Assembly (NCBI GenBank): GCA_013285465.1
Contig: CP053449.1
Span: forward strand, 2,504,735 to 2,568,734
Source of the DNA: Pseudomonadota bacterium
GTDB taxonomy: Bacteria > Pseudomonadota > Alphaproteobacteria > Micavibrionales > CSBR16-224
DNA: 64,000 bases
Direction of reading: 5' to 3'
The notes below the pieces were generated by a model. The model was not told the origin of the DNA. It made no database searches and saw only the letters and a program-made list of their open reading frames with translations. The position numbers and the translations under genes are program-made. Of this stretch, positions 16,600-21,105 are shown in pieces. Every line of letters begins with the position of its first letter. Position 1 is the first letter of the stretch.

Positions 16600-17760
16600 A
16601 TGTCATATCAAAAGGATAAAGATGACGGCATGACCCTGTTATGGGTCTTTCTGGCCTTTGTCGCTATTTTTTCCTTTCTTATCTGGACGGTCTTCCAGAA
16701 CGAGTTAAAAAGCGGGCTGCGCTGGGTGCGGGTTGCGGAACTGAAAGTCGCCATGCTGATTCACGATCCGAAACATCAGGTTGTCCACCCGCAATACGGG
16801 CCGCAACGCCTTGATACATGGTATAATTTCCTGCGCCGCGCCAATCCGAAAAGCATCACCAAGCGGGAAATTGAGGCAATGACCTTCATTTCCATGCACA
16901 GTATCAAAATGCCTCTGATTGTTCTGATGTGCCTGTTCGGATTATGGGCGATTATCAAAGGCCCCGGCACAAAATATAAACGGCGCATGAATCTGGAGGG
17001 GATTCTAACGGAACATGCCAAAAATTTCCCCGTCATCGCGCCTTTTGTCAAATTCAACCCGAGCAAAATGAAGTCGCGCGTCCCCGGTGATCCCGTACCG
17101 GAGAATTTGCCGCTTTTTGCCGAGGCTTTAAGCCCCGAAGAATGGATCGCCTATCACAATATTCCCTATATCAACAAAAAGCTGGACCGTGACAAAGCCT
17201 TCCATGCCCTGACCGAACAGCTGGGGCAGCGCTGGCGCGGGCCGGAAAACCTGCCTTTGCACATCAAGGCGCTTTATGCCGCTTTCTGTCTGAAGGCCAT
17301 CCGCAAAAGAAAAGAAAGTGACCAGCTGATGAACGAGCTGTCACTGGCATGGAGCCATGATAAAGGCCTGCGCATTCCCGGCAAGCTGAAGCGGGAGATC
17401 AACCGCATTATCGCTGACCCCAAAGCGCAGGATGCCGTAACGAAATATGCGAATAAACACGCCTTTGTCACAACCGCCATGCTCCGCGCCCTTGCCCGCG
17501 CCCGCGATGAAGGCGGGGTTTTGTCACCGTCACAATTCCTGTGGCTGCGCGGCTATGACCGCACGCTGTGGTATCCGCTGAACAATCTCGGGCGCAAGGC
17601 CTACCATGCCGAGGCTATGGGCGCGACAACACATTACACTTATGAACTGATTGCAGGGCAGAAAATCCCGACCCCGAAATTCGACGATGCCATCCGTACC
17701 GTAGAGGAATATGTCGGCGGTCCGGCCGGGCGTCCCATCCCGAAACGGGCCAAGGGGTAA
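16600..17760 (+). CDS. dotM: DotM/IcmP type IVB secretion coupling protein
   Basis: Inner-membrane partner of DotL in the type IVB (Dot/Icm, IncI Trb) coupling complex, which recruits effectors or plasmid DNA. The 386 residues have two N-terminal membrane helices (about 12-32 and 102-119) and a cytoplasmic domain. The family block FLWLRGYDRTLWYPLNNLGR and the following YHAEAMGATTHY (about 313-346) are well kept. The start has AAGG upstream. It is followed by a small membrane protein and then DotL, the same DotM-to-DotL order as in Legionella and IncI plasmids with one gene inserted. No other dot/icm genes are seen in the window. Confidence 0.9.
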   Translation: MSYQKDKDDGMTLLWVFLAFVAIFSFLIWTVFQNELKSGLRWVRVAELKVAMLIHDPKHQVVHPQYGPQRLDTWYNFLRRANPKSITKREIEAMTFISMHSIKMPLIVLMCLFGLWAIIKGPGTKYKRRMNLEGILTEHAKNFPVIAPFVKFNPSKMKSRVPGDPVPENLPLFAEALSPEEWIAYHNIPYINKKLDRDKAFHALTEQLGQRWRGPENLPLHIKALYAAFCLKAIRKRKESDQLMNELSLAWSHDKGLRIPGKLKREINRIIADPKAQDAVTKYANKHAFVTTAMLRALARARDEGGVLSPSQFLWLRGYDRTLWYPLNNLGRKAYHAEAMGATTHYTYELIAGQKIPTPKFDDAIRTVEEYVGGPAGRPIPKRAKG

Positions 17761-17840: not shown

Positions 17841-18314
17841 ATGTCCGGAAAAACAACGGCGAAAGTCATGGGCGATGCACTTGTCATGGATTTCGGTTCC
17901 GCAGAACCGAAGGCCATCTGGCGTTGCAGTATGGACAGCCTTTCACAGGCCGGTTTCGCTCTGAAGGGCAAAAATAAAAAATATATTCTGGTGCTGAAAA
18001 CACCGGAAAAAGAGGAGGAAATCGCAATCTTCCCCGATCAGGACGAAGCCGAAACGGCTCTGACCGTTATTACGGGCGTTTTCCTGTCTTATCAGCCTCT
18101 CAGCGCCAAAAAGCCTTTTTACAAACGCGCATGGTTTTACATTTTCCTTTTTCTGATGTTTATGGTGCTGTTCTACGGTATTTCCACACCCACCACGCAA
18201 CAGCAGATACAATATAATATGGATCCGGGCAGCACGCCGCCGATTGTCGGCCAGGATAATCAACCGATCAAACAGGGTGTTCCGACATCCGCAGATGACC
18301 TTTTCGGAGAATAA
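17841..18314 (+). CDS. Small single-pass membrane protein between dotM and dotL
   Basis: I do not recognise this 157-residue protein. Residues 1-95 are a soluble alpha/beta-like domain with alternating strands (KYILVLKTPEKEEEIAIFPD), one strong membrane helix lies at about 97-114, and the last 43 residues are Gln/Pro/Asp-rich. AGAGGAG lies upstream of the ATG. It is not DotN (no zinc-binding Cys set). Its position between the two coupling proteins, in one direction with short gaps, suggests a partner of the coupling complex; that is inference from location alone. Confidence 0.7.
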   Translation: MSGKTTAKVMGDALVMDFGSAEPKAIWRCSMDSLSQAGFALKGKNKKYILVLKTPEKEEEIAIFPDQDEAETALTVITGVFLSYQPLSAKKPFYKRAWFYIFLFLMFMVLFYGISTPTTQQQIQYNMDPGSTPPIVGQDNQPIKQGVPTSADDLFGE

Positions 18315-18357: not shown

Positions 18358-21105
18358 ATGGCCATTAAGATGAAATATCAGCGGAAAAGGGAGGACATCC
18401 TCAGGGATGCCCGCCCGCTTTCCACGCGCATCGGCGAGAATATGCGCAAAGGCGGCACCGCCTCCACGATTTTCATCGGTTCCGCCTATCTTATTTATGC
18501 CGATCCGGTGGCTGTCATGGCCACGGATGTCATCTTTCTGTTTAATCTGTGTTATTTCCTGTGGCTGGTTTCACAAAAGACGGTTCTGCCGTTCAAACTG
18601 CCGAAATCCGCAAAAATAAAAGATCAGAACAATGTCCGCCCCGACGGTAAATACGGTCAGGCCGACGGTATTCTTTATCTTGGCAATGAAATGGATACGG
18701 GCGAGGAAGTCTGGTTCACCAACTCCGATGCGCGGACGCATATTCTTTATCTCGGTACGACGGGCTCCGGTAAAACCGAGGGGCTGAAAGCCCTCTCCAC
18801 CAACGCCCTCTGCTGGGGATCGGGCTTCATCTATGTCGATGGTAAAGCCGATACCGATTTGTGGAGCAGTATCTCCGCAATGGCGCGCCGCTTTGGCCGC
18901 GATGATGATCTGCTGGTGATGAACTATATGACCGGTAGCGCCAGCGGGCGTGTTGCCTCCAATACGCTGAACCCGTTTTCCAGCGGCTCCGCCTCCTACC
19001 TGACCAATATGCTCGTCAGTCTGATGCCGGATGCCGAAGGCGATAACGCCATGTGGAAAGAGCGTGCGGTCGCGCTTGCCTCCTCCCTGATGCCTTGTCT
19101 GGTCTGGCGGCGCGAGAATTTGAATATCCCGCTGAATGTCAGCGTCATTCGTAAACATCTGGAATTCGGCGAGGTGATCCGCCTGTCACGCGATCAGGCC
19201 GTACCGGAAAATCTGCGTATTGCGATTGTCGGCTATCTGAACGAGCTTCCCGGCTATGTCGATGACGCTTTCGATGATGAGGGGAAAGAAAAACCGATGC
19301 CCCCCGATGCGCCGATGGTCGACACCTCCGTCCCGCGCCAGCAGCACGGTTACCTGTCAATGCAGTTTACCCGCTCCCTGCAGTCTCTGGGGGATGACTA
19401 CGCCTATATCTTTGATACCCAGGCCGCTGATGTCGATATGATGGACTGCGTCTTGAACCGCCGCATCCTGATTACCCTGATTCCGGCACTGGAAAAATCA
19501 AGTGACGAGGTCGCTAACCTCGGTAAAATTATCGCCTCGACCCTGAAAGGTATGATGGGTGCAACGCTGGGTTCGACGGTGGAAGGCTCCTCCGAAACCG
19601 CGATTGAAAACAAACCGACGCGTTCCGAAACGCCTTTCATGGCCATCTTTGATGAGGTTGGTTACTATACTGCCGCCGGTATGGCGGTGATGGCCGCTCA
19701 GGCCCGTTCTCTGGGTTTCTGCCTTGTCTATGCGGCACAGGATTTACCGGCGCTGGAAAAACGCGTCAAGGAAGAAGCGCGTTCCATCACGGCCAACTGT
19801 AACATCAAGCTGTTCGGGAAGCTTGAGGATCCGACGCAAACAAAAGACTTTTTCGAGAAAACCGTCGGTAGCGCCTATGTGGCGGAGGTCTCCTCCTTCA
19901 CCCGAGATGCCGGATCGCTCAGCGGCTCTTATAATGATACCAACCAGGCCAGCATCCATGCCCGCGCCCGTGCCGATTATGATGAGCTGCGCGCCTTCCG
20001 CGAAGGCCGCGCCGTCTGCGCCTTTGGTGAGCGTGTTGCCGAATTGCAGGTCTATTACGCCAATCCCGGTATGGCCAAAGCCATGCGCGTCCAGCGTTTC
20101 CTGCCGATTATTCCGCCGGGCGAAGAGGTTATGGAAGGGATGCGCCGCGTCAGCGATATCCTCAAACGCCTGCGCAGCAAACGCTGGGACCCCGAGGCGC
20201 AGCAGCCCGTCACCGATACTTACGAAGATGTGGCCGCAATTGCCGGCGGCTTTGCCCTTGGTAAACAGAATGGCGAGGATTCCGTTATATCCGCCACAAT
20301 GGCCGTTGCAGCACTTGCCGAACATCATAACCTGATTTCCGTGGAGATGGTTCAGGCCGAGCGCGCTGACAAACAGGAAAATGACCAGATTACCGAGGAA
20401 ATTTCCGTCATGACCAACGGCAATGCGCCGCTGGCATGGAATGATATTATCGGCGGCGAGGATGCCGGTAAACTCGAAGACCAGATGGTACAGGATCTTG
20501 CCGCTGATCTGGGCGAAGAGGCCGCACCGCAGAAACAACCGCAGACCGCCGCAAATATCGCGGCGGATGATCCGATGTATGCGGTACAGCAGCAATCATC
20601 CTCTGCGCCGCCGTCTCAAGCTCCGGCAGCGCCGCCGACACCGCTACCGCCGGAAGCCGCACAGGAAGAAGACGCGCAAAACATGAAACCGCTGACATGG
20701 ATGGATGTCATCGGCGGCGATGCCGAAACCATGCCGTCCACACCGCCGCCGATGCCTCCGGCAGCGGATTCGAAATTGCTCAAAACAACACTGCCGCCTC
20801 CGGTGCCGCAACCGGTGCCGGAAAAAACACCGGAAGAAGCGGCACAGGAAATTCCGCCCGAAGCCGAAGATTTACCCGTCATGTCATGGGCGGATATTAT
20901 CGGCCAAAGCGAAGAAGCCGCAATACCGGCCGCACCGCCGGTACCGGAACCGGCAACAGCGCCGCCGCCTGCCGCACCGCCTGAAACGGCTGCCGCACCG
21001 GAGCCCGAGGAAGAGAAAACACTGTCATGGGCGGATATTATCGGCACGGATGACGAGAAACCGGAAGATGACAGCAGCCGCGTCTTCTCCGATAAAACGG
21101 GATAA
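18358..21105 (+). CDS. dotL: DotL/IcmO type IVB coupling ATPase with repeat-bearing tail
   Basis: The AAA+ ATPase of the type IVB coupling complex, binding substrates and chaperones for export. Of 915 residues, about 34-72 are two membrane helices, then the ATPase with Walker A GTTGSGKT (133-140) and Walker B with D432-E433 in FMAIFDEVGYY. The core ends near 640. The remaining ~220 residues are Pro/Ala/Glu-rich and contain four motifs: LAWNDIIGG (692-700), LTWMDVIGG (779-787), MSWADIIGQ (842-850) and LSWADIIGT (889-897). Legionella DotL, about 783 residues, uses its C-terminal tail to hold DotN, IcmSW and LvgA; this tail is longer and repetitive. The start has GGAG upstream. Downstream lies a structured non-coding region. 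Confidence 0.92.
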   Translation: MAIKMKYQRKREDILRDARPLSTRIGENMRKGGTASTIFIGSAYLIYADPVAVMATDVIFLFNLCYFLWLVSQKTVLPFKLPKSAKIKDQNNVRPDGKYGQADGILYLGNEMDTGEEVWFTNSDARTHILYLGTTGSGKTEGLKALSTNALCWGSGFIYVDGKADTDLWSSISAMARRFGRDDDLLVMNYMTGSASGRVASNTLNPFSSGSASYLTNMLVSLMPDAEGDNAMWKERAVALASSLMPCLVWRRENLNIPLNVSVIRKHLEFGEVIRLSRDQAVPENLRIAIVGYLNELPGYVDDAFDDEGKEKPMPPDAPMVDTSVPRQQHGYLSMQFTRSLQSLGDDYAYIFDTQAADVDMMDCVLNRRILITLIPALEKSSDEVANLGKIIASTLKGMMGATLGSTVEGSSETAIENKPTRSETPFMAIFDEVGYYTAAGMAVMAAQARSLGFCLVYAAQDLPALEKRVKEEARSITANCNIKLFGKLEDPTQTKDFFEKTVGSAYVAEVSSFTRDAGSLSGSYNDTNQASIHARARADYDELRAFREGRAVCAFGERVAELQVYYANPGMAKAMRVQRFLPIIPPGEEVMEGMRRVSDILKRLRSKRWDPEAQQPVTDTYEDVAAIAGGFALGKQNGEDSVISATMAVAALAEHHNLISVEMVQAERADKQENDQITEEISVMTNGNAPLAWNDIIGGEDAGKLEDQMVQDLAADLGEEAAPQKQPQTAANIAADDPMYAVQQQSSSAPPSQAPAAPPTPLPPEAAQEEDAQNMKPLTWMDVIGGDAETMPSTPPPMPPAADSKLLKTTLPPPVPQPVPEKTPEEAAQEIPPEAEDLPVMSWADIIGQSEEAAIPAAPPVPEPATAPPPAAPPETAAAPEPEEEKTLSWADIIGTDDEKPEDDSSRVFSDKTG

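Follow-up and report, generated by a model that had tools for sequence, protein, structure and literature searches.

We found that the C-terminal tail of a DotL/IcmO-like type IV coupling ATPase, from a bacterium of the order Micavibrionales, carries four near-identical tryptophan peptides of the form W-x-D-[IV]-I-G, a conserved array that likely makes this tail a multivalent docking scaffold. The ATPase (915 aa) is encoded on the forward strand at positions 18358..21105 of the window, i.e., the whole 64,000-nucleotide stretch of DNA analyzed here, and was recognized by Pfam, NCBIfam and PDB homology. Its open reading frame is laid out as a TM region, an ATPase domain, helices resembling those that bind DotN (up to residue ~673), and a disordered-looking tail (residues ~675-915). 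It matched the Pfam family PF12696 (TraG-D_C) and the NCBIfam family NF041447 (TrbC_conju; E 1.8e-117, under the curated cut-off), and on such homology it is placed in the IncI TrbC/DotL branch of TraG/VirD4-type coupling proteins. IncI TrbC and plasmid-borne DotL-like proteins share this branch (NF041447), and 4059 plasmid records matched the ATPase part; however, none aligned over more than 80% of the query, and the best 15 of the 4059 stopped at residue 601-631, with the tail array not seen.

The sole PDB relative found was Legionella DotL (6sz9_A, E 6.1e-143, residues 13-595). In two reports, the tail of Legionella DotL is described as starting at residue 572, with residues 590-659 binding DotN and residues 656-783 binding IcmSW/LvgA (PMC7280309, PMC7251119). 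The protein studied here resembles Legionella DotL/IcmO (6SZ9) in having a homologous ATPase, a DotN-binding-type segment and a long tail beyond it. Specifically, its post-ATPase helical segment (residues ~590-672; 20125..20374, forward strand) is homologous to the Legionella stretch that holds the DotN-binding helices (590-659), and a profile of 30 DotL homologues (A3) matched 6sz9_A through chain residue 674. That the profile alignment ends at this residue indicates that the DotN-binding-like segment is kept and that homology ceases to be detectable about where the IcmSW-binding part begins; beyond this point, no homology to the Legionella IcmSW/LvgA segment (656-783) was detectable. The DotN-binding part and DotN itself are retained, the divergence lying in the part that binds IcmSW in Legionella. 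Whereas the Legionella tail acts as a scaffold for DotN, IcmSW and LvgA, the corresponding region here is a Pro/Ala/Glu linker bearing repeated, near-identical short motifs, and the accessible portions of the two Legionella reports make no mention of a repeated linear motif in DotL (PMC7280309, PMC7251119). Our searches of the open-access literature likewise found no repeated DotL tail motifs, in line with the initial annotation, to which no described repeat of this type in DotL was known.

Translation of 18358-21105 confirmed the four motifs listed in that annotation: LAWNDIIGG (W694; 20431..20457), LTWMDVIGG (W781; 20692..20718), MSWADIIGQ (W844; 20881..20907) and LSWADIIGT (W891; 21022..21048), all on the forward strand and sharing the form [LM]-[STA]-W-x-D-[IV]-I-G. 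The acidic flanks that had been noted were also borne out, as acidic residues follow all four motifs and also precede the third and the fourth. So was their placement in probably unstructured sequence, the disordered-looking tail coming directly after the DotN-binding-like segment. Tail disorder was deduced from composition and alignment; AlphaFold modeling of full-length DotL with 30 sequences gave a mean pLDDT of 48, too poor to judge docking or disorder.

The strict W-x-D-[IV]-I-G pattern, searched at the DNA level, had four matches in the 2,673,443-base genome, all of them in the DotL tail, and the reversed control pattern had no match in the same 2,673,443 bases. Shuffling the DotL tail yielded on average ~0.0004-0.001 motifs, as opposed to the four observed. 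When D or E was allowed, clustered matches in the motif-bearing genomes were still confined to DotL; the non-DotL matches that could be placed were single and lay mainly in folded-looking proteins and otherwise in other ORFs. Proteins with a single match, named from their sequences, included an alanine racemase, a penicillin-binding protein, an outer-membrane efflux protein and an SMP-30-like protein. We therefore rejected the idea that the W motif is a proteome-wide docking code, since matches outside DotL are single and mostly in folded-looking enzymes. The codons that encode the motif differ among copies and among genomes, indicating that the W motifs are not recent DNA repeats.

We further examined the motif across the order, using anonymous labels for its families (f1-f7, f1 being the window's family and f3 the largest) and for genomes (G000 being the window's genome); the set includes metagenome-assembled genomes, which may be incomplete. 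DotL was present in 132 of 142 genomes, with all 54 genera represented. In f1, all seven genomes bore the motif, six of them with three to five copies and the remaining one (G002) with two strict copies and a degenerate one. In f6, which is the sister of f1 in the DotL tree (support 100/100), the motif was found in 13/13 complete tails, with a strict count of 1-4 and at least two copies each under a broader pattern. A total of 67 motif instances gave the consensus P-[LMI]-[STN]-W-x-[DEQ]-[VI]-I-[GS]-[GA]. Thus, rather than being absent from close homologues, the motif is kept, and kept in repeated form, in close and distant homologues of DotL.

The pattern of substitution within the tail points the same way. 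Between G000 and G003, a close relative, the motif codons showed 0/32 amino-acid changes (with five synonymous ones) and the linker codons 37/223 (Fisher p 0.007); between G000 and G004, the corresponding values were 6/32 and 114/213 (p 2e-4), both comparisons resting on few sites. In these sequences the linkers evolve fast, with the motif codons resisting amino-acid change, i.e., being selected relative to the linkers. Between f1 and f6 the linkers are hardly alignable, yet the motifs persist. Moreover, within each family the first copy lies at a near-constant offset from the folded part, the last copy sits 10-44 residues before the C-terminus, and the spacing between copies is variable, an arrangement that linear motifs carried by a flexible linker would be expected to show. 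Low-complexity drift, in which repeats expanding within a neutral tail would have given rise to the W motifs, would accord with the tail's Pro/Ala/Glu-rich composition and its fast changes in length. However, it fits poorly with the persistence of the motifs in two families across such linkers, with the far smaller number of amino-acid changes in motifs than in linkers, with the rarity of motifs in shuffled tails and with the differing codons. We consider this explanation extremely improbable, and drift or chance as the origin of the motifs was rejected on the basis of the shuffles, the selection pattern and the order-wide survey.

When the motif was sought in a broader form, [STNAKE]-W-x-[DEQRKSAN]-[ILMVF]-[ILVMF], in a table of tails from which G002 is absent, at least one copy was found in f1 (6/6), f6 (13/13), f2 (1/1), f4 (2/2), f5 (5/7), f7 (1/2) and f3 (24/93 tails), amounting to 52 genomes in all, as compared to ~1 predicted by shuffling. 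In the five families other than f1 and f6 the copies are weaker, and the f2 tail has W/F variants of the form FS[WF]GD[IM]M.

The array lies where the tails of relatives end differently. A C-terminal helix-like element, LPxEIxxIIxxA....LF, was found in f5 (7/7), f7 (2/2), f2 (1/1), f3 (62/93) and several outgroup families, and in none of the f1 (0/6), f6 (0/13) and f4 (0/2) tails. Most f3 tails and several outgroup tails have this helix-like end together with no W motif or a single weak one; f3 DotL proteins are ~50-66% identical to that of the window, and outgroup alphaproteobacterial ones 43-55% (long matches). Other f3 tails carry repeats of their own: KP[AST]IF in L038, L035, L087 and L071 (up to 12 times, in L038), and an NPM[AGS]FF-type motif in one to three copies in L028, L030, L034, L053 and others (with the maximum of three in L028). 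Within f3, the helix was found in 0/9 tails with KPxIF arrays as compared to 62/80, a mere hint given that a divergent helix is present in some of those tails, and for this reason we did not uphold the view that a tail with KPxIF arrays cannot also have the C-terminal helix. The simplest reading of these tail sequences would be that the helix is ancestral, with repeated motifs taking its place or being added to it in several lineages. Repeated or single motifs of other kinds were also observed, namely a PPPWAxG-like motif repeated in the Pro-rich DotL tail of an outgroup locus (L189), and single PPW peptides in eight f6 tails.

The W array could conceivably act, instead of docking an adaptor, as a localization or clustering signal, e.g., one that places coupling complexes at the pole or drives their condensation. 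Aromatic stickers in a Pro/Ala/Glu linker do resemble sticker-spacer arrays, as do the 12 KPxIF repeats of the f3 tail mentioned above, yet W-x-D-[IV]-I-G is more specific than a generic sticker, and we regard a localization role as very unlikely.

The initial annotation had put forward the small protein encoded just upstream of dotL as a candidate partner of the tail. This protein, which we term protein X (157 aa; 17841..18314, forward strand), belongs to an unnamed family conserved between dotM and dotL. Among 77 loci, dotM was two genes upstream of dotL in 67 and the X gene one gene upstream in 63, the order dotM-X-dotL being common to the window and most f3 loci; by profile, protein X was found in 120/129 fetched loci of the order and in 5/11 outgroup loci. 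It matched no Pfam or NCBIfam family. Its model consists of a beta domain of six strands and one helix (pLDDT mostly 94-98), followed by a TM helix and then by a tail with a strongly conserved GVPxSADD[LF][FL] motif at its end (alignment A2). By the positive-inside rule the beta domain is predicted to be cytoplasmic, and the C-terminal motif is probably periplasmic. Fold searches (Foldseek, VIA-align) returned mostly PH/PTB/FERM-F3 domains, many of them peptide-binding, as weak matches.

These features raise the possibility that protein X is the receptor, a special case of the docking array in which a PTB-like groove would bind the tail peptides and X and the tail would co-evolve, with the peptide class differing by family. 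Besides the position of its gene in most loci, its fold matches and its predicted cytoplasmic domain, the NPM[GSA]FF repeats of some f3 tails faintly resemble the NPxF peptides bound by PTB domains. Nevertheless, the best fold scores (Foldseek E 0.14; Z 5.9, 3.6 A over 75 residues) lie in the range of common arrangements, and X occurs in five outgroup loci and in lineages that lack W arrays. Its order-wide and outgroup presence leaves the notion of a motif-specific receptor unsupported by co-occurrence, and overall we deem this version unlikely. Protein X is plausibly a new subunit of the coupling complex and a candidate receptor that is more widely distributed than the W motif. A more general view is that DotL tails across the order would be interchangeable docking arrays (one C-terminal helix in some lineages, four W-x-D-[IV]-I-G peptides in others, and up to a dozen KPxIF or a few NPMxFF peptides in yet others) that do the same multivalent job of holding an adaptor, possibly a new one, with the membrane-anchored and possibly PTB-like X as a candidate receptor; this we consider rather unlikely.

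Among the genes for type IVB secretion (T4BSS), a DotM/IcmP gene, encoding a coupling complex partner, adjoins the dotL region in the window (16600..17760, forward strand; PF23127, 5.5e-50; NF033890, 3e-49, below the curated cut-off), and the genome holds other T4BSS core genes, including a DotF/G/H/I cluster in which DotG and DotH were assigned by their position beside DotI, and DotF by a weak match to NF038218. The genome also has six genes with a DotI/IcmL domain (C1:1566809, 1044519, 2138084, 2010275, 1031362 and 876819), five of which do not lie with the DotF/G/H cluster, as compared to one to three copies in the four relatives searched. DotN is encoded at G000:C1:319128 and was found in 126/135 genomes of the order, including all those of f1. 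The small ORFs scanned next to T4BSS genes, few in number and covering little of the genome, gave no NCBIfam match to IcmS/IcmW; NF038223, NF038224 and NF038225 were rejected as IcmS/IcmW models, as they represent IcmN/DotK, an OmpA-like family and IcmX. Elsewhere in the order, ankyrin-repeat proteins, possible effectors, lie beside T4BSS genes in an f6 genome (G123; L202:6693-7685 and neighbors), and tandem near-identical copies of a 129-aa small membrane protein lie beside DotN in genome G121 (L205:2060-3597).

No gene was found that tracks the W motif, X and DotN being equally present in f3, whose tails are mostly motif-free. Alternatively, the motifs might be intramolecular or inter-subunit latches on the ATPase domain of DotL or on DotM, which would tether the tail and regulate hexamer assembly or gating instead of recruiting an adaptor. 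Given that clusters of the motif are confined to DotL, the receptor does not have to be a distinct adaptor; both the ATPase domain and DotM accompany the motif wherever it is found, and multiple copies could touch neighboring subunits. On the other hand, the ATPase domain is about equally conserved in f3, where most tails are without the motif, and no receptor surface specific to f1 and f6 was identified, so that we consider latches quite unlikely.

Returning to the docking scaffold, we propose that beyond the DotN-binding-like helices a flexible Pro/Ala/Glu-rich linker would present the four W peptides, each of which would insert into a hydrophobic pocket on a cytosolic partner in the coupling complex, be it an adaptor for substrates, a further subunit of the complex or protein X. 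With several copies per DotL and an expected six DotLs, the array may bind with high avidity or recruit more than one partner molecule simultaneously. The binding of the peptides, a single shared partner and avidity are thus what we infer, and, if the Legionella tail is taken as a precedent, the array may be linked to substrate recruitment. Similar principles operate elsewhere: the C-terminal tail of F-plasmid TraD binds TraM, and eukaryotic proteins carry motif arrays such as NPF/DPW and LIR ([WFY]xx[ILV] with acidic flanks). All of these are short partner-docking peptides in flexible tails, TraD doing so with one peptide. The LIR-like form of the W motif is taken to be a coincidence, since this tail resides within a bacterium.

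Coupling complexes decide what type IV secretion systems export, and Micavibrio-like bacteria include predators. No description of a Micavibrionales IVB system was found in the open-access literature. Our findings bear on predation in that DotL and DotN are near-universal in the genomes searched, whereas the 2011 genome paper on Micavibrio aeruginosavorus ARL-13, a strain outside the set examined, stated that evidence for a type IV secretion system was lacking (PMC3189940). The partner could be sought by means of single W-to-A substitutions and short peptides. In Legionella, whose IVB coupling complex is the best studied, the adaptor platform is made of tail segments dedicated to it, and a tail of repeated peptides would be a second way to build one.
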